From Picocystis sp. L7 (taxonomy: Eukaryota > Chlorophyta > Picocystophyceae > Picocystales > Picocystaceae): DNA of 64,000 nt. How positions within the stretch are numbered: the stretch's first letter is position 1; the number at the start of each line of letters is the position of its first letter. Below are positions 13,157 through 64,000 of the stretch, piece after piece. The notes under the pieces were generated by a model that was given only the letters and a program-made list of their open reading frames with translations, was not told where the DNA came from and did no database searches. A program made the translations under genes and the position numbers. The stretch is from positions 1,116,001 through 1,180,000 of the forward strand of contig QXJR01000026.1 of NCBI GenBank assembly GCA_020975725.1, given 5' to 3'.

Positions 13157-13184
13157 GGTGTGGTGTGAAGACGCAACTTTCGCG

Positions 13185-35516: not shown

Positions 35517-35950
35517 TGTTGTGGCGTGGTTGTGAACCGCTATACAGTATGTCCTTCGCTACTGCGCGGGGTAATTGATCCCCTTTCCTGCTTCTTCAAC
35601 GTGTTCTTTGTCCTTCGACAACGAGTTCCAATGTGCTTGCTCGATGAGAGGAGAATTCTGGTATGGAGGTGGTGACTTCGTCAAAGTTCTGTATTACAAG
35701 GCATGCACTGCGCTCTTAAATAGTCGCAGGTGTTCGATTCCGTCCAATGTATTCTCATTGGTATACTTGAGTGAATTCTACAGTCGTATGTTGAATTCTA
35801 TGGTTCGTTCTTGCACGACGTTTGGTCGTCGCTGGTCATGTCGTCGGCGATCTACATGTTGAGCTGTCGATCGACCCTTTCCCTTGGTCGGAGGACTCGG
35901 TCTTGGAGGGAGAGCTGTAAACCCTAGGCGAATTAACATTCGTTTCAACA
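35517..35950 (-). repeat. Probable 3' LTR of the copia element
   Basis: On the minus strand the sequence just after RNase H has a purine-rich GAGTGGGAG immediately followed by TGTTGAAACG, the usual polypurine-tract/LTR boundary of copia elements. The other end is placed at ...CCACAACA (35517) because it gives a short TGTTG/CAACA inverted repeat. No second LTR is available for comparison, so the left end is uncertain. Confidence 0.4.
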
Positions 35951-36749
35951 CTCCCACTCAGCTCTATTACCGAGGGTTCTTTCATACCGATGACGTGGAT
36001 GCAGGTCTTGAACTTCTGCAGTGGCACTTGCTTGGTAAGATAGTCGGCGAACATCCGGTCAGTGGGGCAGTATTCGAACTGCACTTCATCACGCACTGCA
36101 CGTTCACGTAGAAAGTGATGTTGCACGTCAATGTGCTTTGCGCGCGTAACGGATTGTGGATTCAGTATCAACCGTAACGCTGACTGATTGTCCATCTTTA
36201 CCGTCGCCGAAATCTCCTCTGGTCCCAGCAGTAACTTCAGATAGTTCTTGATCCATAGTACTTCTTTGACTGTGGCTGTGGTTGCCTGGTATTCTGCTTC
36301 TGTAGTGGAGATTGCAATGATAGGTTGCATCTTGCTTTGCCAGGCCACCAGTGATCCCATTGCATGGATCACATATCCAGTTCTTGACCTTCTACTGCTC
36401 TTTTCTCCAGCATAATTTGCATCGCTGTAAGCTTCAACACTGATGTGCTTCAAAATGTTTTCATCTGTGGCTTGATCGACTAACATTTTGTTTTGTGTTC
36501 CATGTAGGTACTTCAATGTTCCACAGAGTGCGTTCCAGTGTGATTTCTTTGGATTTGAGTTGTACCTTGCCAATGCTGATGTTGCGTAGCAAATATCCGG
36601 TCTGGTGGTTCCACTGAGATATTGAAGCTGACCACATATTTTTTGATATTGCAGGTGTTCTACTGAATCTTCAAGTGGATCATCCAGCAGAGGTACGTTC
36701 AACGGTATTGATTGTGTTTTGCTTGTTTAGATACCATGCTGCTATATAT

Positions 36750-37515
36750 TGTGGCGCGTGGGCGCCCACCTCCTTTTCCCGTGGCGAGCCGGCGCCGCCG
36801 GTGGTGGCATCGGCGTGCGTTCGCGCTCGTTCGCTCGTGCGTTCGTGTCGCCGCGGTGCTCGAGACCGTGGGGCGGAACGTTGAGGAACGTTGTTGTTGT
36901 GTTCTCGTTCCCCTCCGCCGCAATTAATATTACATCTTAACTCCATTGGGGAATCCGCCCGTGGCTAAGCCACGTATTTATCCGGTTCATCGGCCACAGA
37001 GCCCTTATTAGAAAGGGGGACAAACCGGTCCCTATTCGGGTTAGTCCTGGCCCTGCATCCGCCTAGGGACATGGCTGAGGAGGACGTCCCAGTGAGGGGA
37101 AGGCAAGGGCCTTCCTTGGGCATCCGAGAATATTCCCTCATGCCTCCCTAGTACCTCCTGGTAGGTAGCGAGATGCTGCAAGCGAGGGAACCAGGGAGCC
37201 TTTGGCCAATGCGGAGGGATCATGGTCACAAGGGCTGTAGGTTCGGCCTCCAGCTTGCCTTTCGCGGAGTCAATGAGGCAACAGGGTGGGTGTGCCCATA
37301 GGTTGCCAAGACTAGCCCATTCTTGGGCGAGAGCATGAGTCTCCCGTGTAAAGAAGGCCGGACATTGGGCATGGTTTGGCGAGGCAAACAAGTCCCAAGT
37401 AAACGGCCCGAATATAATTGAGAACCTCTCAATAGCCTCACGATGGAGTGCATATTCCTCATCGTCAAAGGACAACCTCGGCAAGACAGGTGTCTCGAGA
37501 GGGCTGGGCGCAACA
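36750..37515 (-). mobile_element. 766-bp insertion with a DIRS/Ngaro-like gene fragment
   Basis: The block interrupts the copia reverse transcriptase. Its ends are TGTGGCGCG and GGGCGCAACA, an imperfect inverted repeat, flanked by ATAT on both sides (probable 4-bp target duplication). The minus strand encodes a fragment with WDLFASPNHAQCPAFFTRE and MIPPHWPKAPWFPRL, a pattern known from the RNase H/methylase-like region of tyrosine-recombinase (DIRS, Ngaro) retroelements. It is a short non-autonomous fossil. Confidence 0.6.
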
Positions 37516-38257
37516 ATATAGTCACTGACCTTGTTAGCTTGATGCAATATCATGGTTCCTGCTTTACGATCTCTGATGATCGTCATTCCGAGAAAATGCT
37601 ATGCCTCTCCCATGTCAGTGATTTTATATTTGGAATGTATCAGATCTTTCATGGTCTGTACACACTGCAGATCTCGGCCGGCAATCAGTATGTCATCTAC
37701 ATAGAAACACATGTAGATTATGGCATCTGTGGATGTGCACTTCATCGCGTTTTGGTCCAGTCGATTGCATGTGAATCCGAGTGCAGTCAGTGTTTTGGTC
37801 AATTCTTGGTTCCATGCACGGGGAGCCTGTTAGAGTCCATATAGACTTCTGTTGAGCTTCAGAACTTGAGCCGACTCTTTGTTGTTTGTTAAACCACTCG
37901 GAATGCGCAGGTATACTTCTTCTCCGAGTTCTGCATTTAGAAGTGCAGTTTCCACATCCAGTTGATGTAAGTTTAAGTCCAGCTGATTTACTGCTGCGAG
38001 AAAAAGTCTGAGTGCATTTTTGCTGACTACTGATGCATAGATCTCATCGTAATCTTCTCCAGGACGCTGATGACAGTCCAAGGCCACTAGTCTGGCCTTA
38101 TACTTTACGATATTGTTCAAGCCATCTCTCTTTAAGTTGAAAATCCATTTGGTACCCAGTGGCTTTCTACCTTTGGGTAATTCAGCAAATGTCTAGGTAC
38201 GCATTCGGCTCAGTGAAGTCAGTTCAGTTTGTATGGCTTCCTGCCATTGTTCACTAT

Positions 38258-38839
38258 TGTAGCGTCCAAGTAGGGTCGCGGACAGGGGACACTTGTGCAA
38301 CGAGCGAGTTGCGGCTCTCAGCAGTCGTTGAGATCCTGGAAGAGGCTGATGGGGCGAGGAGGTCGTCTCGGAGGACAAGTAGAAAAGTGAATTGCAAGGC
38401 AAAGAGAGGGACTGGAGGTCCGTCTCTCAAAACCACTCAGTGGCGGTTGAGATGAGGGCAAGTGGGGCACAAGGAGGGTCCACGTGCTGCTGACGGTCAA
38501 ATCTGACCGTCCGTGCAGCCAGCCGTGGGGCGTCCGCCAGCTGTCCGAGTCATCGACACCGTCCAGCCTCCCCAGCCCTACCTTCTAGAAGTACACGGGG
38601 AAAGGGAATCCTTTCGACTCAACTCTACCGGTCAAGGGTTCCCTTCATCCCTTACTGAAACATGTCCATTGACCCGGGGCGTTCTGCATCTATTCCCGGG
38701 CTCTGTTGACCCACATTCAATCCAGACCCGGATCTATGGTATAACGGTAGTAGGGAGCAGTAAGGCAATGACTGCCCTTTTACTCCCCAAAGTCTCGGGG
38801 TCTTCACGCAGGGTCTCGTAGGGTCCCTGCTAGGCTACA
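38258..38839 (-). repeat. 3' LTR of gypsy element 1
   Basis: 582 bp, TGTAG...CTACA, preceded on + by the target duplication CTAT. It contains a CACGTG (38481-38486) and a perfect hairpin GACGGTCA/TGACCGTC (38492-38511). Confidence 0.95.
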
Positions 38840-40835
38840 TTCTCTTGGCTCCTGTCAGGTCACTGACACATCAGACGTGAAGAAAGTCATACACATAACT
38901 GATGGGGTCATATAGCATCGCACGTATCTCAGCAGCTGTATAACTTTGCTTGATCCCATCAGTCCAGCGCACGCAATAGTTTTCACCCGATGTGCCAATC
39001 ACAATGCCTTGAAAGTATGCTTGTGTGCCATCGGAGGCATGAAACAACTGTTGCACCACTGCCTGTTGCAGGTTATGGGGTGACTTGTAAGTCGGTCTTC
39101 GTCGGGTCTGGAATGGTAGCTTTGAAGAAGTCCAGGTGTTCACTAATATAGGTGCTGGATACTGTAAATATACTTGGTGTTTATGCTGTTCCACTTTCTC
39201 AAGGTTAGAGGCAGTAATGCCCTGTTCGGGAATGCAGCCATTGTTTTCCTCCAGCACCAAAAACTCATCTAGTAGTTCACTAGTTTCATTGACCCACATG
39301 TAGGGTTCTGTAGTTGAAGTTGTCTTGACCCAATAACGAACATGCTGTTGGGGGAAGAGTTGATAGTCTCTCAATAGATAGCGCTGTATGATTACGGCGG
39401 GTTCCACGTTGGCATCCACGGGAAGGGAGGTGGATGCACCAGTAGGTTCTTGTGAAGGGAAGAGCGTTAAATCTGAATCGAACCACGGTGCCAAACGGTC
39501 AGCATTGAAGCGGTCAGAATAGGGCGAATCAGGGGGCAGTTGTAGCCTGTAAGCCCCTTTTCCCAAGTCTTCAGTAACGGTGAATGGACCGACGTAGTAT
39601 GGGTCCAGTTTGTGTTTATCAGTTGGCCCCTTCAGGCCATACTGGACTTTCACTTGATCACCAACCTTGAAAGAGCGAGTCGGTAATTGTGAACGCAGGG
39701 CCTGGAATTTCTCAGCTTGTTTATGCAAATGCTCCAGCATGGTTTTGTACAATTGTCGCTGTTTGTCTAGTAGGACAGTAACCCGTTGGTCTACTGTGGA
39801 TATCATATCTGTGAGACTCTCTGTATTGTCCTGTAAGGTTAGGAACTGCAAGTGCCAGGGCAACCTTGAAGGGCATCCGAACAAAGCGACAAACGGCGCA
39901 ACTTTTGTAACAGCATGTACACTGTCATTATAAGCATGGGCAGCTGCCTGTAAATAGTCATCCCAGTTTAAACGGTCATCGCACGTTAAGCGCAGCTGTT
40001 GTAAAAGAGTGCGGTGCTGTCGCTCTGCACCTCCTTGGGATTGTGAATGATACGGTGTTCCAGTGGAATGCTGAACTCCCATTGCAGCGCAGAATACCTG
40101 GAAAAGGTCGCGATACGCTGGCCCATTGTCAGTGTGAATGCGCTGCGGCGTATGGAAGCGGTACACGAGCGCATCTAGCAAGCATTGCGCTTGTCGGAAA
40201 GAACTCCAGGAAGTGTGTATAGCAATGTAGATCGCATACTTCGTAAAACGATCGACAACAGTAAGCACCCCATTATGCCCCTTGGCTGTAAGGGGCAATC
40301 CTTCGACCACATCCATTACCACTGTGTGAAATGGATAGGGATAAAACTTAGTCTCGGCAAAGAGGGGCTGGTGCCTAGATGTTGTTCCTGGTTTTTGCAT
40401 CTGACAAGTTGGACAGCGCGCGACAAAGTGATTTATATGCTGTTTCATTCCTTTCCAAGTGAAGTGGCGCTTGGCGTTTGCGAAGGTACGCTCTGCACCG
40501 AAGTGCGCCTGGTCATGTACTAGGTGTAATAAGTCCTGACGTAAGGCGTCATCTGCGGGAACCAGTACCACAGCAGGGCCGTCGAAGACATCGATCTGAT
40601 TTGGAGGGCTGACTTCAAAAAGCAGTCCATTGGTGGCACGCAAATGTGGGGGCGGCGATCGCAGCCATGCCTCATACTGAGGGTCAGATAGAGCGGCGGA
40701 CCGTAGGCGCTGCACAAAAGAGGGACTGCCCGGATCGGCTAACGCGGACAGGATTCTGGACTGTTTGCCTTGAACACACACAGCCTCGGTAAGACTGCGG
40801 CTAGCTAGCGGTCGAAGCGTCCCTGTGGGTGTTTT

Positions 40836-41713
40836 AAAGTAAAGGTCCAGAAGGTTGGCTATCCACGCTACGGGGAATGCATTGCCGCACAACCGATGTC
40901 GCATGCTTGGTGAGACATTCTCGGCAGCTGTGTCTCCAATTTCCATCCCAACCAAGCGCTCTTTTTCTGTAACTGTCAGCGCTCTTTCAGTTCCATCTGA
41001 GTTACGTACCCATGTTGTCCGATTGCGGTCACTATGCGAGTTACTCGTTGCCATCAAAGTGGGGCATTTAAGAACGGGCTGGTTCATTGCCCCAGTAGGA
41101 ACCGTAGCTCCATCGGTCAAACAATCTTGCCAGGTAAGAGGCAGACCGGGTACATGCCATATACGTGAATTGGACGGAAGCGAAGTCCAGCAGTACCTGC
41201 TCCTTTTCTGGGGGCAGTACTGGGACATGTCGTGTAAGGCGGGCTCTCCAAACATTTCCGCAACCTGCTGAAAATCTTTGTAAAGGTGGCCTGCAAAAGG
41301 GGTACATTCGATGATATAATCTGGTCGACCAAGTCGGTTGTAAAGGGTATGTACCGTTGTAAAAAGTTCTCTTTCATCCCGCAGCCCATAACTGGGGTAG
41401 TCTGGCGAGGTATTGGCTTTGGAGAACGGCTGGCATGGTACCCCCGCGATAAGCAGGTGGACAGGTGGTAGCTTTCTTCGATGCGCCAATACTCGTACAT
41501 CATTGCCATAACGGAAGATATCTGTGCGGTGAAAGAGTCCAGGTCGATCGAGGTTCACCTCAGCAAACACCCTCTGTATTACCTTTCGGGCATGCTCTTC
41601 TATTTCGACTGCTATGTAATCAACTTGTATTGGATAGCCAGTTGGTATGAGATGCCACAGAGCTCGAAGGACTGTGCCCATACCTGCACATAAGTCTAAA
41701 ATCCGGATGATGG
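40836..41713 (-). other. C5 cytosine-DNA methyltransferase domain inside gypsy-1 pol
   Basis: About 290 residues between RNase H and integrase carry the ordered motifs of C5 methyltransferases. Motif I is LDLCAGMGTVLRAL (SAM binding), motif IV is GVPCQPFSKA (catalytic Cys), motif VI is IIECTP, and motif VIII is QKRSRYCW. Motifs IX-X are RLVGMEIGDT and RLCGNAFPVAW. The short target-recognition region and PCQPFS favour a DNMT3-like or bacterial-like enzyme over a maintenance DNMT1. It is in frame with the polyprotein. Retroelement-borne methyltransferases are known from dinoflagellates and charophyte algae, where CG methylation activity has been reported. Confidence 0.92.
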
Positions 41714-44700
41714 GAGGACCTGTGCTAGGGGGGTTGCGCGATAAGTAATCTGCAGTGATATTTTGAGATCCTGGGCGGTACTCGACAGCGAAAGGTGCAA
41801 AGTATGCCAACTTCGCCGTCCAGCGCTGATCCCGGGGACTGAGTTGTTCTGCGGACTTGCTTTGCAAGTACATGCTGGCTTTGTTGTCTGTAAGGACAGT
41901 GAATCTCTGTCCAAAGAGAAGGTGCCGCCAATGCTGCAGAGCGTAGACGATAGCACAAGTCTCCTTCTCTGCTGGATGATAGTTCCTTTGTGCTGAATTG
42001 AACTTTTTAGAGTAATACTCAACTGGTTCCCAGGTGTTGGGGGAGGTTTCTTGTAGTAGTACAGCCCCCATACCCAAATCCGAAGCGTCAGTCTCAACGC
42101 GTATAGGCCGGTCTTCATCAAATAACTGTAAAATAGGTCCAGTAGTGAGCATACGCACAAGGTGTTCAAAGGCCTGGTCATGTTGAGCCTTCCAGAAACG
42201 ACAGAAGTCGTGGCGGTACTGTTTGCGAGTGAGCTCTGTAAGAGGTGAAGCAATCTCTGCATAATTGCGTACAAAACGCATGTAGAATTGACAAAGTCCC
42301 AGGAATGCTAAGTTTTGTTTGTGTGTGACAGGTTTAGGGAACTTTTGTATGCGCTCCACCAAATGGTCTGCACAACTGAGCTGGCCAGCATGTATGCGAA
42401 AACCAACCCATTCCAGCGTTCGGTGGAAGAAGTGACATTTTGACTCTTTCAGTCGTATGTCGTTACGCTGGCATACCTCGAGGAAGTCTTCCAAATGTTC
42501 AAAGTGTTTCTCTTGATCTACAGAGTGTATCAATATGTCATCCATATAGACCTTTAAAAAGGGCAATGCCCCAAAAATTCGATTCATCATTCTCTGGAAC
42601 ATTGCAGGGGCATTGGCCAGACCCATTGGCATAACCCTCCATACATAGCTGCCGAAAGGAGTAACAACTGCTGTCTTGTCAACATCTTCTCCATTCATGG
42701 GGAGTTGGTGAAAGCCGTCTAGGGCGTCTACTGATGAGAAGATACTTGACCCTCTCAAGTTCTGCAGGTGGTCATCTATTCGCGGCAACGGGTAGCGGTC
42801 CTTAATTGTGGCTGCATTTAGCATTCGATAGTCGAACACGACCCTCCACCCCCCATCCTTCTTTGGGATGAGGAGGACAGGTGCCCCCCAACTCGATCCC
42901 GCACAGACATCCATTTTCCCAGCGTCCACGTATTCGGTCAGCAGTTCGCGTAGAGCATCCTGCTGTTGTGGGGACAACCGATAATAGTTGCGATGCACCG
43001 GCTGAGTACCAGGTTCCAGCTGAATCTTGAATGACTCACCGGGTACGCGTTCGCAAGGTAAGGTGGTACGCTTTTCAAAGCAGAGCGCGTACTTGCTGAG
43101 CAGCTTCTGCAGTCTCTCTTGTTCGTTGGGTGACAGCGTGCAGGCATCACTGAGCTTACTGCGGAAGGTCGAAGTTTCTAGTTCTTCAGATGTTAGCTCA
43201 CAGGTGACATCAAGAGGTTGCACCATTAGTAATAAACATCCTTCTGTTTGCATGGCCTCTTTGATTTCAGAGGGGGGCACTATAAGGTCAAGTTTACGGG
43301 CTTTTAAAAATGCTGTGTCGCCCTGTACTTTATGAACTGTCCCATCAGGATGTTTAAGTTCCATGTACTGATGCTGCCAGTTTATGTGCAGCAAGAAGAG
43401 GTGGCAGAAGTCGACACCTAGTATGCATTCAAAGGTCTCAATGGGGGCCACACCGAAATAATGACTCACCTGGAAGGTATCGATTGTAATCTGTGCTTGA
43501 ATAACTTGGGCCTGGTGCACTTCTGTCCCTACTGCTAGGCTGAAATCAAAGTATTGGCCAGTAGGCCTCCAATTCTGCTGTGTTGGGTCATGCTTCTTCA
43601 GTTTTTCAAAGTAATGAATGCTTAAGAAGGAGTTGCTGGCAAGCGTGTCCACGTACGCCTGTGTGGACAGGTCAGTAGGACCTGTAGGTCCAACAGTACT
43701 GCTGGCTGTGAGGAACTCACAACGGGGGCGAGGGTTTGGCGACGCTCGTAAGGCTACCACCTGATCTGGGTATAAGTTGTTGAGAGTCAACGGATCAGAC
43801 CTCGCGCTTGCGGGTGGCACCTCTCCTGGCTCCATCCCGACGGCCTCTTCCGTCGGGAGGAGCCTGTTCAGTTTTTTGGCATCATTGGCTGGGTGTGACG
43901 GCAATGTTTTGCGTCATGCCCGTAGCGTCTACACTTGATGCACAAGGAATTACTCTGACAGAGTTGAAGTTGGTCTTGAGAAAGACTGGCTCCCAAAGGC
44001 AGACTTTTCATCTGTGTCTGCGCAGCCACTATCCTTTTTTGAAGTTCCTCCGATAAATCTCTGAATCGCTTGGCGGCCCGTCCTTCGATCGATCGTACGT
44101 TGGGGCGGTAGCTCCCTTCCTTCTGAGGTAAGGCATGGACAGTGGCCACAGATTTGGCTCCATGACCATTCTGATTGAGCGGCCTGACCGTGCGTGAAAC
44201 ACGCCGAGCTTTCTCTCTGTCCTGGGCTTCCACTTTCAATGCGATGGCTGCTATGCCCCATGGGGACACATCTGGCTTGCGTTCCAAATCAACCATCAGT
44301 TGCATGTGTTGCTCCACCTTATTGCCACTGTCATATGGCAGGCCGATGCGTAACCTGGTGGCGATGTCATCCTCATCAACCCTTGGACAGGTGGGGTCAT
44401 CGCTCATATTTATCACAAAACTCAGAAGAAGGAGGCGGTTCAAGTAAGTGATCACATTCTCCTTGTTTTGACGTAAACGAGCCCGCTGAAATTCTTTCCA
44501 AGCATCAGGCCCTGGGTCTCTTCTTTGAAAGGTCTCCTTGAGTAGACTGAAGAGAGACGGTAAGTTTGGAACGCGCTCCCGATCAGCCATGATAATATTA
44601 TCGACCATGATGCGGGCTGTGCCTGTCAAGGTCTGGAGTGCTAGTACTACCTGCTGAGTTGGATCGCTCGCGTAACCTTCAACCCAACAAGCAACCTCCC

Positions 44701-45163
44701 TATACCAGTGGGTGAGTGCATATGGGTCATCTATCACTTCCGTTCCATAGAAGCTTTTTGGCTTGGACAATGCCACTCCTTGCAACCGGTGGGAGCCTTC
44801 CATAGATTGGTACATCTTGGTGAGTGAATGAAGTCCTTGTTGGCTCAATGGTTGCATAGCCAGGTGGGAAGCATTCCCAGCTGCCTTCTCATTGGGTTCA
44901 ACTGATGGTGGAGTAGGTCCCTTGTCCTCGCGAGGGAAATCCTCCTCCCCAAGCGGTTCTTCTTCTTGCACTTGCGGGTCTTGAGCGGGGGTGTCGTTAC
45001 GCAAACGACGTAGTTGACTTTCCAACTCCTCCACTTGCTGAGCAAGGGCGGATCGAGCTTGTTGCTCACGTTCCAACTCACCTCTCAACCGTTGCATTCG
45101 TGTGGCGGTTCCGGAGAGGAATTCTTCCTCCGAGTCGCTCATCGCCAAGCGAGGCTTCGACAA

Positions 45164-45745
45164 TGTAGCGTCCAAGTAGGGTCGCGGACAGGGGACACTT
45201 GTGCAACGAGCGAGTTGCGGCTCTCAGCAGTCGTTGAGATCCTGGAAGAGGCTGATGAGGCGAGGAGGTCGTCTCGGAGGACAAGTAGAAAAGTGAATTG
45301 CAAGGCAAAGAGAGGGACTGGAGGTCCGTCTCTCAAAACCACTCAGTGGCGGTTGAGATGAGGGCAAGTGGGGCACAAGGAGGGTCCACGTGCTGCTGAC
45401 GGTCAAATCTGACCGTCCGTGCAGCCAGCCGTGGGGCGTCCGCCAGCTGTCCGAGTCATCGACACCGTCCAGCCTCCCCAGCCCTACCTTCTAGAAGTAC
45501 ACGGGGAAAGGGAATCCTTTCGACTCAACTCTACCGGTCAAGGGTTCCCTTCATCCCTTACTGAAACATGTCCATTGACCCGGGGCGTTCTGCATCTATT
45601 CCCGGGCTCTGTTGACCCACATTCAATCCAGACCCGGATCTATGGTATAACGGTAGTAGGGAGCAGTAAGGCAATGACTGCCCTTTTACTCCCCAAAGTC
45701 TCGGGGTCTTCACGCAGGGTCTCGTAGGGTCCCTGCTAGGCTACA
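45164..45745 (-). repeat. 5' LTR of gypsy element 1
   Basis: 582 bp, identical to the other LTR except for one base. It is followed on + by CTAT, matching the duplication at the other end. Confidence 0.95.
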
Positions 45746-47816
45746 CTATCTGGTCTGCTCATTGCTTGGTTATACCCATCAAATTTATCAGGTAAGTCTT
45801 TGGTAAGGAATGCGGTGTAGTCCGTTCTTCTGTTTGGCCGCAGATTATATCGCTAACCATTGTTTGGTTCTGTTTCCATGATCTGGTTGCTGATGCCAGT
45901 TTCTGGAGTTGGTTCTGCGGGTTATTCACTTGGGTCTTCACTTGAAGCTAAATGGGTATCATTGGCACCCATATCAGCCAATTCAGTGGGGGTATTCTCT
46001 CACTGGATTGGCTGGTGTTGGTAGCTTACCAATTCACCAAAGGTACGTTTTTCGTGAATCGTGGGGACGTATTCGCCCATCTTCTGTTCATTGAATCTGA
46101 CGTTTCTGCTTATGACCAGGTTGCTACCAGCAAGAACTCTGTAAGTGGTGGAGTTCTCGTAACCAAGGAGTATCCCTATGGTACTTCTTGGTTCGAACTT
46201 GCCAATAACTTTGTGTTTGGGGCGTAATACCCAACACTCGCAACCGAATACGCGCAGGTTTTTCAGGATTGCTTTTTGTCCAATGAATTTTTCATAGGGT
46301 GTCTGTTTATCAGCACCATTTGATTCAGGGAGTTTGTTCCTGGTGTAGCAGTAGTTTCTGACTGCTTCTCCCCAATACTTGGAAGGTAAGTTGCTGTTGG
46401 CTAACATGGTGCTTGCATGATCGCGCAAATCCCTGTTGAACCGTTCAACGTCATTCTGTTCAGGGGCATAACCAGCAGTCAGTTCATGACTGATTCCATG
46501 GTCATCTAGGTATGCCTTCAGGTCTGATCCGAGGATTTCTTGTCCTCGATCTGTTCTGATGGCTTTGACTTTTGAGTCACCAGAAAGTCTTTCCAGACTT
46601 GTGAGAGCTTGCTTGGTGAATTTGCCAGCTTCACCCTTGCTGGTCATCAGGTATGTCATCCCAAACTTTGTTGAGTGATCCAGTACTGACAATATGTGTG
46701 TGAATCCAACAGGTGTCTCGGGTTTTATTGGTCCCATCACATCCAGGTAAACCAGATCCAACGGTTTATACTGGTAATCCTTTGGCTGATGTTTTGTTGC
46801 TGTGCGCTTGCAGGTGATACAAGCTTCACAAGGTTCATCAATCTTGTATGGTAAGTTCAGCTTACGAATACGGATTGCGTTGACATGGCCAAGGTGTTGA
46901 TGCCAGATTTTTGCAGTTGCTTGTAGGCAGTAATAGTTGCCGTGTTTTGTACTGACTGAAAGTTATATCTTTCCTTTTTGTATTTTGCAGCCATTAGGAC
47001 CAAAAGTGACAGTCATTCCTCTACGGCACAGGTCCTTCACTGAGATTAGATTGGCTGATGCTTGTGGGATGTACAAAACATTCTGCAGAATTAGTTTTGT
47101 ATTTGGGCTATTGGTCAGTGTAAGCTCTGCGGTACCCATCAGTTGGGAGGTAAGTATGGATCCATCAGTGATCTCAACTTGCACTTCCTTTTTCTTGATT
47201 GAACTGACCTCTAATATGTCTTTGTTTCCAGTTATGTGCCATGATGCTCCAGAATCAATGATCCAGCCACCGTTAGTTTCGGTGGCCTGGTGACTGGTCA
47301 AAGCAGCCATCAGTTTTTGCATACCTTGGTTCTTTGGTTTACTTTTGGTCTTGGTTTTGTATTTGCTTGGTACAACTGGACCCTCAATGCCGTAATCTCG
47401 CAGTATGTTCCTTCAGGTATCGACTTCATGCCCGATTTTCTGGCAGTACTGACACTTCATTTTTTGTTTTTGCGCAGGTGCTGCAAGTGGATTTTGAGCA
47501 GTTGCTTGGAGATTTCTAGCAAAGTAGCTCATATTTACACTGAGCTTGGCTTCCTCTTGCACAAGAATCCTTCTGATGTCAGCAAAAGACTTCACCTCTC
47601 CCACCAAATCCAGCATGGTGGTGAGAGTGTTGTACTCTGCAGGTAAGGGGTTGAGTACGATTGTGACTTTCTCTTTTTCAGAGATGGTCACCCCGATGTT
47701 TCTCAGTCCATTTGCAATTTGTACTAACCTATTCAAGTATTGCTCGATGCTCTCTTCTGGTACTTTCTTGAACTTGCTTAATTCAGATTTCAATGCCCTT
47801 CCACGGACAAATCCAG

Positions 47817-48373
47817 TGTAGCACAGCCGTGCTTGGACAGGGCCCCTTCGAGCCCCTGACCCTGCCTCAGTAGGGTCGCGATCTTCCAGCGTACTTGCCC
47901 AAAAGGAATGGGGATAAAGACCCCCTTTCAACGGGAGACGCCCCGGTACAGCCTGATACCACAGTAAGGGACTATCGGACAGGCTACCCGGGGCCACCCG
48001 ACTGGGAACCCGGGACTTTCGATAGCAGATCCTCACCATATCTACCACCCCGGGGCGAGGTCTCGAGAAGGGACTATCGAGACTGCCTGGACGACCGAAC
48101 TAGCTCGTACAACCGTCGGATCCGCACGTGGGACCCACGTGCGCGCCCCTGAGCGTGTCTACCCGTCGAGGGCGGGGCGTGACAGGCTGTTAGCCGCCTT
48201 TCCAAACCCGAAGGCTGAGGGCGAAAGGGGTATTCCTAAGCGAGACCCCAACATGTAAAATCACTTTCCACTTGCGCCGACTTGGTGTGCGCCACCAGCC
48301 TCGACGCCTCCCAACCCTCTCCTCGAAGTCGCCTCCGTCTTCTCGTAAGTCCTGAGCATCGCGTAACGCAACA
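47817..48373 (+). repeat. 5' LTR of gypsy element 2
   Basis: 557 bp, TGTAGCACAG...GCAACA. It contains the near-perfect palindrome GCACGTGGGACCCACGTGC at 48124-48142. Confidence 0.92.
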
Positions 48374-51300
48374 GTGTCTAAGCTTTACGAAAGCATGAGT
48401 GACGGCGAAGAAGAGAACCCGTTGGGAACTGCCACTCGCATGCAACGATTGCGAGAAGAACTCATACGTGAGCAACAGGCTCGTGCCACGCTTGCAGAGC
48501 AAGTGCACCAGCTGGAAAGTCAGCTACAACGCCGACAAACTCAAACTACTACTTTTGAGGACGTGCCTCAAGATACCAAGGAGGACTGGACGGAAGACGC
48601 CCTCTCCTCCCAAGAAGATCAGCCTTCCCCGGAAGAAGAAGACGCTCTCCCGCCGGTCGTCGTTCATGCGCTAAATGAAAAAGGTCTTCAGAGCCTTACA
48701 AAGCTCTACAAGTCAATGGGCGAATCGCAGCGCTTGCAAGGAGTCTCGTTGGCGCGACCTTCCAACTTCTCTGGCTTGGAGGTTGTTGAAGACCCGTACG
48801 CCCTCACCCATTGGTACCGCGAGGTATCTTGCTGGGTACAGGGCTACGCGAAAGACCCCATTCAGCAAGTGGTTTTAGGCTTGTTGACTTTGAAAGGCAC
48901 AGCCTGAATCATGGTAGACAACATCATTATGTCAGACCCCAAGAGAGTGAGTGATTTGATATCACTCTTCCAGATCCTCAAGGAAACCTTCCAGCGCCGA
49001 GACCCAGGTCCTGACGCGTGGAAAGAGTTTCAGAGAGCGCGACTCCGCACAAACAGAGAGAATGTTATCGGCTTCTTGAATCGCTTGTTGTTGCTGAGTT
49101 TCGTAATCAACATGAGCGAGGATCCTACATGCCCGACGGTCAGTGAGAGCGACATCGCGACTAAACTGCGGATGGGACTGCCTTACAACATCAGCATCCA
49201 GCTAGAACAGCACATGCAACTGATGGTTGATGTGGGCAGCGTTCCGGACATCTCTCCCTGGGGCATCGCTGCCACCGCCCTCAAGGTTGAGGCACAGGAA
49301 CGCGAAAAGTCACGGATGACCAACCGTCAACCCCGGCCCGCTGAAAATAAGGTCAACCGGACCCTAATTACAACTGCTGTCCATGCCTTACCGGAGCGCT
49401 CGCCTACGGAGGACCGTCCAAAGTGGAGCACCAGCGGCAGCGCGGCAAAAAGGTTCCGAGACCTACCAGAATCTCTCCAGAAAAGGACCGTGGAGCTCCA
49501 AAAGGAACCCCAGGACTTGCCGTTGGGAGCTACACTGACCCCGGACCAGCAGCAGCGATGCGCCAGCAATTCCTTGTGTATCAGGTGCCGACGTTACGGT
49601 CACGATGCACGGAACTGCCAGCAAACCAAGCCTATGATACCAAAAAACTGAATTGGCTCCTCCTGACAGAAGAGGCTGTCAGGATGGAGCCAGGAGAGGC
49701 ATCATCAATAGACGCATGGTCAGACCTTTCTTGCCTTAGCAACCTTTATCCTGACCAGGTGGTGCCACTACGAGCGTCGCCGAATCCTCGACCCCGCTGT
49801 GAGTTTCTTATTGCGGACGGCTACATAGGACCTGCAGGGTCCAATGAACTTGCAACCGAGGCGTACGTAGATACCCTGGCCGGTAACTCCTTTCTCAGCA
49901 GAGAATACTTTAAGGAATTACAACGCAGTGATCCCCTACGCGTCACATGGAGACCTACAAGACAATACTTCAATTTCAGCTTGGCCGTGGGAACGGTAGT
50001 GCATCGAGCCCATGTCATTGAAGCCCAGTTGACCATTGGAACCTTCCAGGTGCAACACCAATTCGGGGTAGCCCCCATTGAATCCTTTGATTGCATTCTT
50101 GGTGTAGACTTTTGCCACAAGTTCTTAGTGCAGCTAAATTGGCAGGAACAGATCATGGAGTTGAGGGACGAGCAAGGAAAAACTCACCAAGTTCAGGGCG
50201 ACACTGCCTTTATCAAGTCTCGCAAGCTTACTCTGATTGTCCTTGCTTCAGACGTCCCTGACGCTGTTACGTTAGAAGGATGCCTCTTGCTGATGGTCCA
50301 ACCGCTGGACACCACATACGAGCTCAACGCTGAAGAACTGGATACTGCTGCGTTCCGCGGCCGCCTCAGCAATGCTTGCGACCTCACTTCTAATGAGGAA
50401 CAGCGCTTACAGAAATTACTGGAGAAACACCAGAGGTGTTTCCAGAAACGCACGAATATACCGGTAGAACGAACTCCGGGCAAATCCTTTAAAATTCACG
50501 TGGAACCTGGTACACAGCCGGTGCATTGCAACTACTATCGGCTCTCGCCCCACCAGTAGGATGCCCTGCGAGAACTACTTATAGAATATAAGGATGCGGG
50601 GAAGATGGATATATGCGCCGGGTCCAGTTGGGGTGCCCCGGTACTCCTCATCCCCAAGAAGGATGGGGGCTGGAGAGTCGTTTTCGACTACCGCATCCTT
50701 AATGCAGCAACCATTAAGGACCGCTATCCTCTTCCCAGAATTGACGATCATCTGCAGAATTTAGGACAGTCCTACATATTCTCCTCCGTAGATGCGCTCG
50801 GTGGATTTCACCAGATTCCTATGGACCGCAACGACATAGACAAGACAGCTGTGGTAACGCCTTTTGGGAGCTACGTTTGGAAGGTCATGCCTATGGGACT
50901 GGCCAACGCACCGGCCATGTTCCAGCGAATGATGAATCGCATCTTTGGTAACTTGCCCTTCCTGAAAGTATATATGGATGACATATTGATCCATTCTGCT
51001 GATAAACAGGAGCACTTCCAACATTTGGCACAGTTCCTACGAGTGTGCCAGGATAACGATATACGACTTAAGGAGTCCAAAGCCACTTTTTCCAGCAGAT
51101 CTTGGAATGGGTCGGATTTAGGATCCAGAGCGGACAGCTCAGCTGTGCTGACCACCTGGTAGAGCGCATCCGTAAATTCCCCTGACCAGTTACGCACAAA
51201 CAGAACCTGGCTTTCCTGGGACTATGTCAGTTCTATATGCGCTTCGTGCAAAATTATGCGGAGCTCGCAGCGCCCCTCACCGAGCTTACGCGCAAACAGT

Positions 51301-51804
51301 ACAAGCATGACTTTCAACACTATTGGAAGGATCAGCATGAGAGGTCCTTTAAGGATTTAGTACAGCATCTTACCTCAGGACCTGTTCTGCAGTTGTTTGA
51401 TGAAGATCGATCCATACGGGTGGAAACCGATGCTTCAGACCAGGGCATGGGTGCTGTCCTGCTACAAGAATCCACTCCTAACAATTGGCTACCAGTGGAG
51501 TATTGGTCCAAGAAATTCAACTCCGCACAGCGTAACTACCATCCTGCTAAAAAGGAAACCTGTGCGATAGTATATGCACTCCACCATTGGCGCCACCTGC
51601 TGTTTGGACAACCTTTCACCGTATTGACAGACAACAAAGCCAGCATGTATCTACAAACCAAGTCTGCGGAACAGCTGAGCCCGCGCGATCAACGATGGGT
51701 TGCGAAGTTGGCTTACTTTGCTCCCTTTGCAGTAGAATACAGGCCTGGACCTGAAAACATAGCAGCAGATTACCTATCGCGACAAGGCTTAGGGACTGGT
51801 TACC

Positions 51805-52690
51805 CGATCATCAGAATATTGGACCTTTGCGCAGGCATGGGGACTGTTCTGCGCGCTTTGTGGCATCTGCTTCCCGCAGGGTCCCCGATACAGATCGATT
51901 ACATCGCTGTGGAACTAGAACAGGATGCCCGCCAGGTCATTCAACGGGTATTCGCAGATATACACCTGGACCGACCAGGGCTGTTCACCCGTACCGATAT
52001 TTTTCGATATGGGAACGATGTCCGATCTCTGGCTCACCGACGCAAACTGCCAAAAATCGATGTGCTAACAGCAGGAGTGCCCTGCCAACCCTTCTCAAAA
52101 GCAAACACATCAAAACAGCACCCTAGTTACGGATTACGAGATGAAAGAGAGCTGTTTACCACAGTATACAACATACATTGCCGCTTGGGTTCACCTGACT
52201 ACATTATTGAGTGCACCCCTTTTGCTGGTCATTTACAAGAAGACTTCCTACAAATTGCAGAAATGTTTGGGGAACCGACACTACATGACCTGTCCTTGTT
52301 TTGCCCTCAGAAACGCATGAGGTACTATTGGACTTCCCTTCCAACCATTTCACAGGTCCATCATATTCCTGGGTTACCTATGACCTGGTCTGAATGCCTC
52401 GAGGACGGCGCTTCACCGCCCACAGATTCCCTCAAGCAGCCAATACAGAAGTGTCCCACTTTGATGGCATCCGTTAATTCACACAGCGATCGCAGTAAGG
52501 CAACCTGGGTGTACGACTGCCAGGGGACTGCCCGTCCATTGAATATATCAGAAAAGGAAAGACTTACAGGCATGGAGGTAGGGGACACCGCTGCCTTGAA
52601 GGTAACGGAGGCCGCTCGACACCGGATGTGCGGTAATGCTTTCCCCGTAGCCTGGATAGCCCATCCGCTGGATTTGCTTATCATGAAGCA
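51805..52690 (+). other. C5 cytosine-DNA methyltransferase domain inside gypsy-2 pol
   Basis: Homologous to the domain of element 1 and in the same place between RNase H and integrase. Motifs seen are LDLCAGMGTVLRAL, GVPCQPFSKANTS, IIECTPFAGHL, QKRMRYYW, GMEVGDTAA and RMCGNAFPVAW. The methyltransferase stretch reads open although the element as a whole is broken. The two copies are similar but clearly diverged, so the domain was already part of their common ancestor. Confidence 0.9.
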
Positions 52691-54676
52691 CGCAGGAACG
52701 CTTAGACCGCTAGCTAGCCGGAGTCTCGCAGAGACTGTGTGTGTTCAAAGCAAGCCAACTGCTGTGCTGTCCGCGCTTACGGAGCCGCAACCCGCATCAT
52801 ACATACAGCGCTTGCGTTCAGCGGCCCAAAAGGACTCAGAATATACTTCGAAACTGGAAGCCCCCCCTCCGTACCTTCGGGCCGTCGATGGATTGTTGTT
52901 TCATAAACCAGTACCAAACCAGCAGGGATCCTATGAAGGACCCGCTGTTGTACTGGTACGAGAGGACCGTGCACTGCGACAAGACCTGCTCCACCTGGTA
53001 CACGATCAATCACACTTTGGAGCTCAGCGCGCTTATATGACTGTCAAGAGACATTTTGCATGGAAGGGGATGAAGGGACACGTGTAGACCTTTGTCTCCC
53101 AATGCCCAACCTGTCAACTCCAGAAACCAGGCAATACCACATCGCGACAGCCTCTGTTCCCAGAAACAAGGTTCTACCCATATGCATTTCACACAGTGGT
53201 TTTGGATGTGGTGGAGGGACTGCCCCTCACCTCTAAAGGGCACAATGGAGTCCTAACCATAGTGGACGGATTCACAAAATATGCTATTTACCTTCCCATA
53301 CACACTTCATGGAGCGCGTTCCGCCAAGCCCAGTGCATATTGGATGCACTTGTGTACAAGTTTCATACTCCACAGCGCATACACACAGATAACGGGCCAG
53401 CATACCGGCAGCTGTTTCGGGCCTTTTGCGCGGCACTCGGAACCCAGCATGTCACAGGTACTCCTTACCACTCACAGTCGCAAGGTGGAGGAGAGCGACA
53501 GCATCGCACTTTGCTCCAACAGTTGCGCGTAACTTGTGATGACCGTAGAAATTGGGATGACTACTTACAGGCTGCAGCACACGCGTACAACGACAGCGCG
53601 CACACGGTCACCAAAGTAGCCCCGTTTGTCGCCTTGTACGGATGCCATTCCTGACTTCCTTGGCACCTGCAACTCTTGACCCTACCAGAACCTAATGTTT
53701 CTCAGCTGGTCTCCACTCATGACGAGAGGATCCATTCCTTCCTGGAAAAACAACGAGCAGTGTACAAGCAGATCCTTAAACACCTATGCGCACAGGCCGA
53801 AAAGATGCAAGCCCAACTTGCCAACCTGCCTGCCCGAACATTCAAAGTAGGAGATCAGGTCAAGGTACAGTATGGTCTGAAAGGAGCAACGGGAAAACAC
53901 AAACTGGATCCTTACTATGTGGGGCCATTTACGATTGCGGAGGATCTGAGCAATGGGGCATACAAATTACATATCCCCCCAAACTCTCCCTACTCGGACA
54001 GATTCAATGCAGACAGACTAGCCTTGTGGAGTGATTCAGACTTGACGCTGTTTCATGCTCCACACGATATTGGAAACTCACCAGCCCGCTTGCCACCCGA
54101 CTGCAGGGTGGAACCAACCATCGCCATCCGTCGATATCTGCTGAGAGACTATCGCTACTTCCCGCATAAACCGGTCCGTTACTGGGTACCGACAGACTCT
54201 GCAGAAACGCCGTATGTATGGGTGGATGAGTCCAGCTATGTTGGATGAATTCCTCAGTCTAGAGGAAAATAATGGTTGTATCCCAGAAAGGGGTATCATT
54301 GATGAAAACAAAGAGGCAGTGAAAACACACAAACAACAAATCTACTTACAATATCCGAGCCCAATACTTGTTAATACCTGGACCTCCGCCCGATTACCAC
54401 TGCAAACCCGAAAACGGCCAGCGTTCAAGCCGCCGCATATACTACTGAATGCTATTGTGCAAGAGCTTTTCCACATATCCGAGACTAATCAAGCATACTA
54501 CCAGGGCCTAGTTATCAAGGTGAAGAAGCAGACCTGCACCATACAGTGGACGGATGGGCATAAAAGCCAACATACACAAGCAGAAGTTCGTTCGATGCTT
54601 TATGACCCAGTGAGTCAGGCCTATGATTTCCTCAGCTAGTAATGTGTGTCAATGGATACGACAGAAGCCAGGAGAG

Positions 54677-55687
54677 TGTAGCACAGCCGTGCTTGGACAA
54701 GGCCCCTTCGAGCCCCTGACCCTGCCTCGGTAGGGTCGCGACCTTCCAGCATACTTGCTCCAAGGGAATGGGGATAAATACCCCCTTTCAACGGGAGACG
54801 TATTTGAAGATTGGGTCTGTATCCTCCCTCTCAGTGGATGCTGGGCAGTTCGATGGGCTTGGACCTAGGGCTTTTCTTGCCGTAGGGTTGGAACGCTTCT
54901 CCGAAATGACGGATCGATCGCGTCTCACGTTGCTCACGTGGTGATGGGTTGAGAGCAGATGCAGGTAGGTAGGCGTTGCCGTTGATGGTAATGCAAAAAA
55001 CTGGTTACAGGTACAGTCGCGAGTGCTTTATAAAGTGCGCTCTAGCGAGTTGAACGAGGTCACGTGTCTTTGGAGTATCCGCTGACCAGCGTTGTTTTCG
55101 TCTTGTTCAGAGATCCACTGTGAGGGCGTTGGTCTCGTCGTCGTTGTCGGACTTTCCGTCTCGACTGCTTGGGAGCCCTTCGGTTGGCGGGTCCCCGGTC
55201 TGTCTTGGACCATGCTGTATACCCACGGAAGGGGTATTACTTCCAACAAGACGCCCCGGTACAGCCTGATACCACAGTAAGGGACTATCGGACCGGGTAC
55301 CCGGGGCTACCCGACTGGGAACCCGGGACTTTCGACAGCAGATCCTCACCATATCTACCACCCCGGGGCGAGGTCTCGAGAAGGGACTATCGAGACTGCC
55401 TGGACGGCCGAACTGGCTCGTACAACCGTCGGATCGGCACATGGGACCCATGTGCGCGCCCCAGAGCGTGTCTATCTGTCGAGGGCGGGGCGTGATAGGG
55501 TGTTAGCCGCCTTTCCAAACCCGAGGGCTGGGGGGCGAAAGGGGTACTCCTAAGCAAGACCCCATCATGTTAAATCACTTTCCACTTGCGCCGACTTGGT
55601 GTGCGCCACCAGCCTTGACGCCTCCCAACCCTCTCCTCGAAGCCGCCTCCGTCTTCTCGTAAGTCCTGAGCATCGCGTAACGCAACA
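54677..55687 (+). repeat. 3' LTR of gypsy element 2, split by an insertion
   Basis: Same sequence family as the 5' LTR once the 448-bp insert at 54801-55248 and its 5-bp duplication are set aside (558 versus 557 bp). It is preceded by a purine-rich CCAGGAGAG tract. Confidence 0.92.
54801..55248 (-). mobile_element. Solo LTR (448 bp) inserted in the gypsy-2 3' LTR
   Basis: A 448-bp block absent from the 5' LTR is flanked by AGACG on both sides (54796-54800 and 55249-55253), a 5-bp target duplication. On the minus strand it begins TGTTGGAAG and ends CTTCAAATA, a short inverted repeat of LTR type, and has a TTTATAAAG box about midway. No internal region remains, so it is read as a solo LTR, probably of a copia-like family. 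It contains CACGTG at 54935 and 55061. Confidence 0.7.
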
Positions 55688-56599: not shown

Positions 56600-57349
56600 C
56601 TAGAATCCTGCTGTCCCTGCACATTGATCAAGGTGTGGGGCAAGTGCCCCACACGGGCTGTTTTGCTGAGTCGCTGGCAAACAGGCATTTGAGTTGAAAA
56701 AGGCTGGTTCGTCAGCAATCTTGTTTACACACCAACCGGAAAGGTCTTGGTCGAAGCTGCTGGCCCCATTGAACATACTACCCATGGCGGTCACATTGCT
56801 GGTGTGTCAGCTCCCAATGGCCTGGTTGATGCTGCTGGCAGGTAAGAACACCCCCCTCATGTCGGTTACCACGCTGGTCTTCCAGCTCCGAATGTCTTGG
56901 TTGAAGTCGCTGGCAAAATAGAACATCCAAAACATGGTTTTCACCTGACTGGTGTCCCAACTATTGATGTCTTGGTTGAAGCTGCTGGCGGACCTGAACA
57001 TGTTATCCATGTTGGTCACACTGCTGGTGTCCCAATTGTCGATATCTTGGTTGAAGCTGCTGGCCCCAAAGAACAACCCGCTCATGTCGGTGATCCTGCT
57101 CGTGCAGGTCAAACGGATCTGTTCGTCCGCTTGATCATCGTTGATAAGAGTCTCGAGCTGGGCCCGGGTTCGTGTGGTGTACATTTCCCCGTCCACCACG
57201 CCGGTGTCGCCCAGGGCCGCATCGGGAAACCGCATGGTCACGCCGTTGTCGGCCAGAAAAAACCGTTCCGGCTCATCTCCTGCGAAGGCTTGTTAGAGGC
57301 CCGTTCCACAGAACAATTAGAGGACCAGGAAGAAGGACGAGAGGGTCAT
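56600..57349 (-). pseudogene. BspA-like (DUF285) surface-protein pseudogene
   Basis: One continuous minus-strand frame from ATG 57349 to a stop at 56600 encodes a signal-peptide-like start (MTLSSFFLVL), a linker ([19 protein letters not shown]) and about five 25-residue DUF285 repeats of the form [18 protein letters not shown]. Three in-frame stops interrupt it: TAA at 57319-57317 and TAA at 57295-57293 in the signal region (the intact neighbour has TTC and CAA there), and TGA at 56809-56807 where a repeat should have TGG. Otherwise the frame is undamaged, so inactivation is recent. DUF285 repeats form secreted or surface proteins with leucine-rich-repeat-like solenoids in bacteria and many protists. 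It lies head-to-head with a longer copy at 58449. Confidence 0.8.
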
Positions 57350-58448
57350 GTTGGCTGCCAACTGCTCACTCGCGTGCACCTGGGCCAGCCGTCCATTCTG
57401 GTTCGATGCCTCACGCACGCGTGTGGTAAATTGACCGAAGGAATCCATGGTCGAGAGAGAAAGAGAGGCGAAGAACGAAGGGGAGGACAGCAGGGTCTCC
57501 GGGGCGGGGCGCCCCGATCCGAGGGAGGGTGGCGGCGGACTGGATCCTCTCCACGAGGAGACCTTGTGGGGAAGGAAACAGAGGAAGGGGTCGTATTCGT
57601 GGTCCACGAGAAGGGAGCCAGGTGGTTGGGCCCCCGCGGCTCCTTCTCCGACCGTACGAAGGCGGGGCGGGTGGGGACAGGTGCACAGGGAGGAGAGGAC
57701 GCGCAGATCTTCTCGAACCAACGGTCTTGCCTGGGGCGCCCCGATTCTATGATGAGGGGGCGGGGACGTCACCCTCCCACCTTCGCACCCTTTCACTCCC
57801 TTCCTCGTTGGTACGGATGGTGAAGCAGGAAAGATACAGGCCTTGGAAAGAGAATACACGGACTGTGGAACGGAATCCGTTCCAGGGACCCGACAGAATC
57901 GGGATCCGTCGAAAAGGTTGTGGTGCGTGGATCGGAGGGGAAACAGAAGCGACCCCTTTCCTGAACCGACCGAGGGGGTGAAGCAGAACGCAGAACGGGA
58001 TCTTTTCCGATCCCACCGTCTGACAAACCCACCACAGCCGCAGGTGCTTCCCCCGCCCGCCCCGAAGGCAATGGCGACTGCACCCTCACCTCGGACCCAT
58101 CCACCCTTCTGGTCGGACGGACCGCGAGTAGTCCCTCTCCTTCCTCTCGTTCCCAAGTACGGTCCATCCCTGTCCTTCGGGGGGAGGTGGGGAGGACAGC
58201 GCATACCTATCCTTGAAGTGGGGCGCCCCACCCCCGACCCCTCCTGGGAGCCATCGGGGTCTTTCTCCACGTCACCTTCCCTCTCCCTCCCTCCCAGCCG
58301 GTACGGTTGTGGAGGAATGTGGAAATCTTCTTCCCCCTACTGGCGACGAATCCATCCGCCTGTCTCCTCACTTCCACCTTCTCCCTGCCGCCCACGCGTT
58401 GCCTCGTCGAAGAAGCGCAGGTAGGTTCGGTGGGCACACGCGACAACC
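57350..58448. promoter_or_regulatory. Bidirectional spacer of the BspA-like gene pair
   Basis: This G+C-rich spacer lies between two divergent paralogues. The perfect 10-bp palindrome GGGGCGCCCC occurs three times (57506-57515, 57733-57742, 58220-58229). Long frames on both strands have no domain character. Confidence 0.5.
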
Positions 58449-62943: not shown

Positions 62944-64000
62944 CTGTCGAAGCTTAAGCTCCAGGTGTACTCTTTGAACGACCCGTAACATGGAGGAAGG
63001 TGACCCTGCCACCCGTATGGATACACTTCGGAGGGAGCTTGAACAAGAAAAAGACCGAAGAAACGCTCTTGAAGTCCAGGTGGCTGAGCTCCAGCAACTC
63101 CTTGAAGAACTTCAAGCAACTAAGGCCAATGAGGCTGAGGATGGTGACGAAGAACCTCTTGGCGAGGAGGCACCCCAAGAAGACACAAGCATGGAAGAAG
63201 AGGGTGTTGTCATCCCATCAGAGAGAGAGGGCTTGCCACACCTCATTAGTGTATATGGCACAGCCTTACAAGACTCAAAAAATATATCCAAGGTGTCGTT
63301 GGAGAAGCCCGACAAGTTTACGGGCCTAGAGCTAGAGGACAGCCCCTACGCCCTCATGTATTGGTACCGAGACGTTCTTTGCTAGTGAAAAGCCTACGCC
63401 TTTAATAGGCCAATGGAACAACTGGTTCTTGCTATTAATCAAGCCTTGGCAGGTACCGCAAAAGCAATGGTGCAGAATCTGATAATGCGAGACCCAAGCG
63501 CGCTCTCGTCAGTGGAAGACCTGTATCAGTACTTGCGTCGAACCTTTCAAAACCAAGACCCCGGGCCGGAAGCGTGGCGGGAATTCCATACCACCCGAAT
63601 GAAGCGAACAGAAAATGTCTTGCAATTTCTCAACAGATTGGTGCAGTTGAGCTTTGTCGTTAACGCGAGCAGCTCACCTGTGCGTCGAACGCTTACAGAA
63701 AATGACATATCCGCTCGTCTTCAGCATGGTCTTCCAGGACATTTGCAAAGCGCTCTCTACAAACACCTGGACCATATGATTGAAGTGGACAAAGCTCCTG
63801 ACATGGAGCCTGGAAGTCTCGCCGCAATCATTTTCAAGCTGGAGCGTGAGAGAAACGAGCATGCGAAGAAGGACACTCGGCAACCAGTGAACAATTGGAA
63901 ACCGCGTTCTACAGGTGGGCCCTTCAACCGAACATCGCGCTACCCAGCCTCGCAGTCGCCAGCAGCAATGGCAACTGCTCTACCTACAGCAAGGCCCAGC
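62219..64000 (+). mobile_element. Ty3/gypsy element 3, 5' part (runs off right edge)
   Basis: A 5' LTR (62219-62943, TGTTAC...GTAACA, 725 bp) is followed by a leader and a gag gene from ATG 62990. The gag has an N-terminal coiled coil (MDTLRRELEQEKDRRNALEV) and a body homologous to the gags of elements 1 and 2 (DPGPEAWREF, LQFLNRLVQLSFVVN). It is a third, more distant LTR family of the same clade. The visible part is broken at least once. Pol and any methyltransferase lie outside the window, and age cannot be judged without the second LTR. Confidence 0.85.

Follow-up and report, generated by a model that had tools for sequence, protein, structure and literature searches.

A predicted DNMT3-type cytosine methyltransferase in the pol gene of a Ty3/Gypsy retrotransposon and of an older relative beside it

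Introduction

Retroelements that carry a cytosine methyltransferase are a kind already published (2018), and the closest described systems come from PMC5890265. In KnitGypsy-Dnmt3 of Klebsormidium nitens, the Pol of a Ty3/Gypsy element includes a DNMT3-related domain, SymbioDIRS-Dnmt3 of dinoflagellates has a DNMT3-class domain inside its Pol, and SymbioLINE-Dnmt bears a C5-methyltransferase of an orphan lineage, under selection, in a long interspersed nuclear element (LINE). De novo CG activity was shown in yeast for SymbioDIRS-Dnmt3, the sole active type in that source; the original prediction for the DNA studied here, made from its sequence alone, was thus right to recall such activity for dinoflagellate enzymes and mistaken in extending it to the charophyte Gypsy enzyme. 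Gypsy/DIRS retrotransposons with an adenine or cytosine methylase have also been stated, collectively, for stramenopiles, red algae, green algae, charophytes and others (PMC6338049), and eukaryotic DNMTs were surveyed in 2025 (PMC12344493). Here we analyse a stretch of 64,000 nucleotides (the window) of Picocystis sp. L7 (contig QXJR01000026.1, positions 1,116,001 to 1,180,000), in which an intact Ty3/Gypsy element (element A) and a second one (element B) carry the same methyltransferase at the same place in pol.

The likeness to KnitGypsy-Dnmt3 extends to conserved key residues and to purifying selection, seen there as Ka/Ks below 0.2 and here as replacement sites that are unsaturated where synonymous sites are saturated. 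The repeats of KnitGypsy are, however, described as DIRS-like, whereas element A has ordinary 582-bp long terminal repeats (LTRs) that end in TG..CA and are flanked by a target duplication of 4 bp, a comparison made by description only (PMC5890265). SymbioDIRS-Dnmt3 has a tyrosine recombinase and DIRS repeats in place of the rve DDE integrase and LTRs found here, and the SymbioLINE enzyme lies in ORF1 of a LINE lacking both LTRs and integrase (PMC5890265). In the window, seven of ten scanned proteins are of host type and encoded as single open reading frames (ORFs) with near-complete domains (M17 peptidase, Tcp11, ammonium transporter, AAA, PDE, SRA-SET-Tudor and DUF285), and the genome therefore looks intron-poor. 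This seems unlike an intron-rich charophyte, and the host appears to be a different one. That element A simply belongs to the KnitGypsy-Dnmt3 family or to a close charophyte relative, and is nothing new, is consequently improbable in our view, in spite of the shared architecture class. At the level of titles and abstract openings, we could not find any further Gypsy-DNMT lineage in the open-licence literature, which is not proof of its absence. The present analysis adds a form with ordinary LTRs, the long conservation of the enzyme in two subfamilies, and a conserved frameshift signal.

Results

The pol of element A contains motifs I, IV (PC), VI (E), VIII (RxR), IX and X of the C5-methyltransferases, all in one frame and in canonical order, between the RNase H and integrase domains (Table 1). 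Every motif on which the original prediction had based a complete C5-methyltransferase in a Gypsy pol was thus recovered. The catalytic cysteine, the glutamate and the R-x-R of the domain align with those of known C5-methyltransferases (MAFFT), and the misalignment of the catalytic PCQ that might have undone the assignment is not seen, as it falls on the PC of DNMT3B and HhaI. In Pfam searches the whole pol of A matched the C5 methylase family at E = 6.7e-7, yet no single stretch fell below 0.001; once excised, the domain matched PF00145 at 5e-9, and its homologue in element B at 8e-11, scores which argue that the methyltransferase match is not due to chance. A chance ORF is ruled out by the existence of two homologous copies under selection.

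Element A (38258-45745) lies on the minus strand, a point absent from the original prediction, and reads as an intact, recently inserted and recently mobile Ty3/Gypsy LTR retrotransposon, an assignment made by its LTRs with TG...CA ends, its short target duplication, and a Pol order ending in a DDE integrase, the protease being weak. The LTRs differ at a single position (38352 G / 45258 A, outside CpG) and CTAT stands on each side, as had been predicted. The accompanying claim of a very young element is borne out for this copy, with its near-identical LTRs, but not for the family, which is old. The LTR distance is 0.0017 in element A against 0.056 in element B, with no clock applied. When the flanks of element A are joined via one CTAT, they give an uninterrupted copia-type pol reading frame, which indicates a precise insertion nested in an older decayed copia element; the two parts of the latter lie at 35836-38257 and 45746-47816 on the minus strand. 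The gag of element A has a CX2CX4HX4C knuckle (43901-43942) and matched no Pfam gag family above cut-off, and its pol encodes protease, reverse transcriptase, RNase H, methyltransferase and integrase in a single frame (Pfam). The protease match is stronger in element B (gag-asp_proteas, E = 8.8e-5), though likewise below the curated cut-off. We could not recognise any primer-binding site in the 21 nt before the gag ATG, nor a self-priming match beyond chance, and Rfam and tRNA searches gave no match. Among repeats of at least 30 nt between 36000 and 48000, the LTRs are the single direct repeat family and there are no inverted repeats.

Element B (plus strand, 47817-55687) is a more degraded copy, with 30 differences between its LTRs over 557 aligned positions. 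No target duplication is seen at its outer edges, and rearrangement or recombination is therefore possible. The 448-bp insert in its 3' LTR (54801-55248) has no further copy within the window. The borders of the methyltransferase domain coincide in A and B, which points to a single capture preceding their split. The open methyltransferase frame of B is on its own no evidence of selection after insertion, because with six lesions in pol about one third of random placements would by our estimate spare the domain. Between A and B, the proportion of differing synonymous sites (pS) in the methyltransferase is 0.85, that is, saturated, while that of replacement sites (pN) is 0.185; for other regions pN is 0.092 (reverse transcriptase), 0.103 (RNase H) and 0.119 (integrase core), rising to 0.211 in the protease, 0.262 in gag and 0.285 in the C-terminus. 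Saturation of synonymous but not of replacement sites implies that the capture is old and that the domain was kept by selection. Changes between A and B affect 4 of 77 motif residues and 81 of 220 others (Fisher p 1e-8, for a motif set picked with the A-B alignment in view). These comparisons place the capture before the split of two deeply diverged subfamilies and imply long purifying selection on the enzyme. The methyltransferase is probably useful to the element, because an older, diverged relative nearby has retained the same one.

The sequence argues strongly for -1 frameshifting between gag and pol, by a signal conserved in both copies. A slippery heptamer directly precedes the gag stop and is followed by a stem-loop (Table 1). 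The 78 nt past the gag stop fold with z-scores of -4.9 (A) and -4.1 (B), none of 200 shuffles being as stable in either case. Heptamer and stem together span 57 nt, at 51 of which A and B are identical, and 2 of the 15 pairs of the stem are changed on both sides in B with pairing kept, that is, in a compensatory manner. With such a signal, the expected quantity of methyltransferase is that of Pol and not of Gag.

By profile and fold, the methyltransferase is predicted to be of DNMT3 type. A single-sequence search of the PDB gave 34 rows at E ≤ 1, headed by 26 that are DNMT3B, DNMT3A or DNMT3C (E 3e-7 to 4e-5). With a two-row profile (A and B), 29 of 40 rows at E ≤ 10 are DNMT3A/B/C, and the best 26 of these (E 2.6e-8 to 1.4e-5) cover approximately residues 60-290 of 309, a stretch that leaves out motif I. 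The remainder comprises the bacterial 'cytosine-specific methyltransferase' entries 3lx6 and 3me5 (E 0.001), six rows of HhaI (0.44 at best, over residues 80-179 only), one unrelated row, and 4onj and 4onq (E 0.5), which we take to be plant DRM. DNMT1 and DNMT2 structures are absent from these matches, though present in the library. Membership of the DNMT1, DNMT2 or DRM families was accordingly rejected, their matches being absent or weak and the motif order unpermuted. Likeness to the DNMT3A/3B catalytic domain concerns the best profile and fold matches, the canonical motif order and the short recognition region; unlike these enzymes, the element has no PWWP or ADD domain, and identity is about 25% for A and 22% for B. 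The AlphaFold2 model of the domain reached a predicted local distance difference test (pLDDT) of 86 and a predicted template modelling score (pTM) of 0.87 with an alignment of 52 rows, 50 of which are phage DNMT3-like (61 of 80 viral loci checked, 59 stop-free and in frame, 50 used), as against a pLDDT of 40 with the two window rows alone. In Foldseek, from which the best 50 rows per search were taken, the best 50 of 142 PDB rows (E ≤ 0.001) are all DNMT3 (best E 3e-18, template modelling (TM) score 0.76), and the best match to viral models among the rows listed is a phage enzyme (TM 0.67). At the lysine position of the DNMT3B motif TTKSNS, presumably equivalent to Arg836 of DNMT3A, element A has T and element B has S (MAFFT), residues that do not predict CpG recognition.

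Concerning the source of the capture, a phage-, bacterium- or giant-virus-like 'orphan' enzyme, rather than a host DNMT3, is a real possibility, to which we give slightly less than even odds; the role in the element would be the same. In a tree of 29 rows, HhaI, HaeIII, 3g7u and two phage Dcm rows stand on one side of a split (99/99), and DNMT3B, the element and the other phage rows on the opposite side; the element branch is 4.49 changes long. The tree contains DNMT3B as its one eukaryotic DNMT3 row, two-segment pieces for HhaI, HaeIII and 3g7u, and viral methyltransferase ORFs pulled from 26 of 80 loci, of which 15 were used (L003 left out). Approximately unbiased (AU) tests rejected none of four placements of the element: with DNMT3B alone (p 0.088), with the phage rows to the exclusion of DNMT3B (0.29), outside phages and DNMT3B (0.504), and on the HhaI/HaeIII side (0.505). 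The tree is thus compatible with a DNMT3, a phage-type or an orphan origin alike. A phage-like source is also favoured by a tblastn match of the B domain to Synechococcus phage S-CBS2 (E 8e-7, 26% identity over 97%), by a match to PHROG 116 (E 1e-17, strongest over residues 4-117), and, in a uniform panel, by a best phage row of 60 bits against 39 for DNMT3B with element B, values that are about equal with element A (52 against 54). However, both phage enzymes that were compared with the PDB proved to be DNMT3-like in turn (S-CBS2 against DNMT3B 1e-30, FPSV 1e-25, among the best 60 of 85 and the best 60 of 95 PDB rows, respectively). The spacing from motif VIII to motif X is 105 in the element and 99 in DNMT3B, nearer than in 18 of 21 phage rows, although three phage rows (104, 107 and 107) come nearer still. 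The NDVR motif, aligned with DNMT3 by HMMER but not by MAFFT, is missing from six phage rows.

Phage DNMT3-like Dcm enzymes such as that of S-CBS2 share with the element PC(Q/K)xxS and, in five of six rows, RxRxxWT, but are stand-alone proteins, mostly with approximately 25-30% identity over long stretches. They are very common in IMG/VR, where a scan confirmed at least 552 out of 600 candidates (loci L011-L090). For relatives of either the methyltransferase or the entire pol, a pattern search of viral contigs gave no match; two other searches yielded 77 and 57 candidates, all unconfirmed, and a further one confirmed 3 of 77 as phage-type Dcm matches (L002-L004). We could not find any match in phage DNA by blastn with 701 bases; a plasmid search gave two weak matches, and the one confirmed candidate of 14 in a GTDB genome scan looks like an RsmB-type RNA methyltransferase and was not used.

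The window also holds a host-type gene that joins Tudor (PTM/DIR17), SRA and SET domains in one ORF (22495-25383, minus strand), likely a methyl-cytosine reader fused to a histone methyltransferase; it suggests that the host uses cytosine methylation. Elsewhere we observed a DUF285 gene (58541-59461) with a diverged inverted copy at approximately 56744-57340 (region 56744-59233), and a diverged, low-complexity tandem repeat block at 12629-13171.

Table 1. Features of elements A and B and of a third relative (window coordinates).
Feature	Position	Strand	Remarks
Element A, 5' LTR	45164..45745	-	582 bp, 99.8% identity to other LTR
Element A, 3' LTR	38258..38839	-	582 bp
Target-site duplication CTAT, low side	38254..38257	.	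joined flanks continue copia frame
Target-site duplication CTAT, high side	45746..45749	.	
Gap from 5' LTR to first gag ATG (expected place of primer-binding site)	45143..45163	-	21 nt
Element A, gag ORF	43868..45175	-	435 aa if counted from a TTG; first ATG 45142
Slippery heptamer A AAA AAC	43871..43877	-	directly before gag stop; identical in element B at 49642-49648
Stem-loop, putative -1 frameshift stimulator	43828..43864	-	15 bp, 6 nt past heptamer
Element A, pol ORF	38871..43904	-	1,677 aa; -1 frame relative to gag; overlaps gag
Retropepsin-like protease region	43290..43673	-	gag-asp_proteas E 0.013, below curated cut-off
Reverse transcriptase	42393..42869	-	RVT_1 7.5e-35
RNase H	41799..42194	-	RT_RNaseH_2 3.6e-34, RT_RNaseH 1.4e-33
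Predicted DNMT3-type C5-methyltransferase domain	40827..41720	-	pol residues 729-1026, between RNase H and integrase
Catalytic motif IV AGVPCQPFSKAN	41412..41447	-	identical in element B; aligned with PC motif of DNMT3B and HhaI
Integrase zinc-binding H2C2 (Integrase_H2C2)	40389..40553	-	6.1e-18
Integrase core rve (DDE)	40044..40334	-	7.4e-15
Tf2-1-like SH3 (SH3_Tf2-1), integrase C-terminus	39489..39629	-	5.9e-9
Weak Tudor/Agenet-like C-terminal segment	38910..39047	-	best E 0.035, below cut-off
Element B, 5' LTR	47817..48373	+	557 bp
Element B, 3' LTR	54677..55687	+	split by 448-bp insert with 5-bp duplication AGACG
Element B, gag	48365..49651	+	one stop
Element B, pol	49615..54633	+	three frame pieces, two frame changes, four stops in codons aligned with A
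Element B, methyltransferase domain	51801..52685	+	frame open, 72% identity to A
Third, more distant relative, gag	63008..63892	+	39% identity; in-frame stops; runs toward window end

Discussion

Taken together, these data suggest, with a probability of roughly 60%, an autonomous and recently mobile Ty3/Gypsy element whose DNMT3-type Pol enzyme would methylate the element's own new complementary DNA (cDNA), to the element's advantage. Because it lies in Pol, the enzyme would be produced at the same low ratio as reverse transcriptase and integrase, and may be packed together with them. It could then methylate the new cDNA in the particle or in the pre-integration complex, so that the copy would reach the nucleus, or integrate, already methylated. 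The benefit might be, for example, a cDNA that resembles host DNA, or placement in tolerated silent chromatin. Self-methylation by retroelements was put forward as a hypothesis in the discussion of PMC5890265.

Several observations weigh against such a role. We could not find any CpG-depletion footprint of self-methylation in A or B: their observed/expected CpG ratios (0.71 and 0.75) lie at the low end of those of eight host regions (0.73-1.03; window 0.85), and the copia element, which has no methyltransferase, is far lower to the right of A (0.44; 0.78 to the left). The LTR differences of element B include 7 CpG transitions among 30, and 6 counted transitions in CHG context. These values hint at best weakly at CpG deamination in the genome and give no indication that the elements are methylated more than other DNA; CpG deamination as a sign of self-methylation was rejected. 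Constraint on the methyltransferase is about that on the protease and weaker than on reverse transcriptase, RNase H and integrase core. The fold match is biased by the preponderance of phage DNMT3-like rows in the alignment behind the model. Finally, the KnitGypsy and SymbioLINE enzymes gave no DNA methylation in yeast, a result that their authors call inconclusive (PMC5890265).

For the SymbioLINE enzymes, RNA was proposed as the substrate instead (PMC5890265), and a methyltransferase that modifies element RNA could be envisaged here too, some DNMT families being active on RNA. No DNMT2 structure appeared among our profile matches at E ≤ 10, however, and we regard this as very improbable. An action on the target site or on host chromatin, with the methyltransferase working as an integrase fusion that marks the neighbourhood or silences competitors and leaves the element's own cDNA aside, is unlikely, though less so. 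The domain directly precedes integrase in one polyprotein, a weak Tudor-like segment lies at the C-terminus of pol, and the host SRA-SET gene in the window could read such marks; but the Tudor match is below cut-off, and we could not find any Pfam or PDB match for a chromodomain, the mark of chromoviruses, at the integrase C-terminus.

Methylation of the element's own cDNA may also be part of a wider picture, which we put forward tentatively and would not yet bet on. Outside dinoflagellates and charophytes, Gypsy elements of a third eukaryotic lineage would independently have captured, long ago, a deeply branching DNMT3-like enzyme, whose source may have been a phage or another virus, and would still be transposing with it and methylating their own cDNA. 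The original prediction, too, had proposed a possibly independent lineage able to mark DNA, perhaps its own copies.

Cytosine methylation usually silences transposons, and an element that encodes its own methyltransferase and has long conserved it inverts this relation. In the published cases, the benefit of the enzyme to the element was left open (PMC5890265). An intact and very recent Gypsy copy with ordinary LTRs, in an apparently intron-poor genome and with an SRA-SET gene nearby, would be well suited to finding out whether methylation of the cDNA precedes integration. If the proposed role is true, two subfamilies and a copy with near-identical LTRs would constitute a living system for testing retroelement self-methylation.

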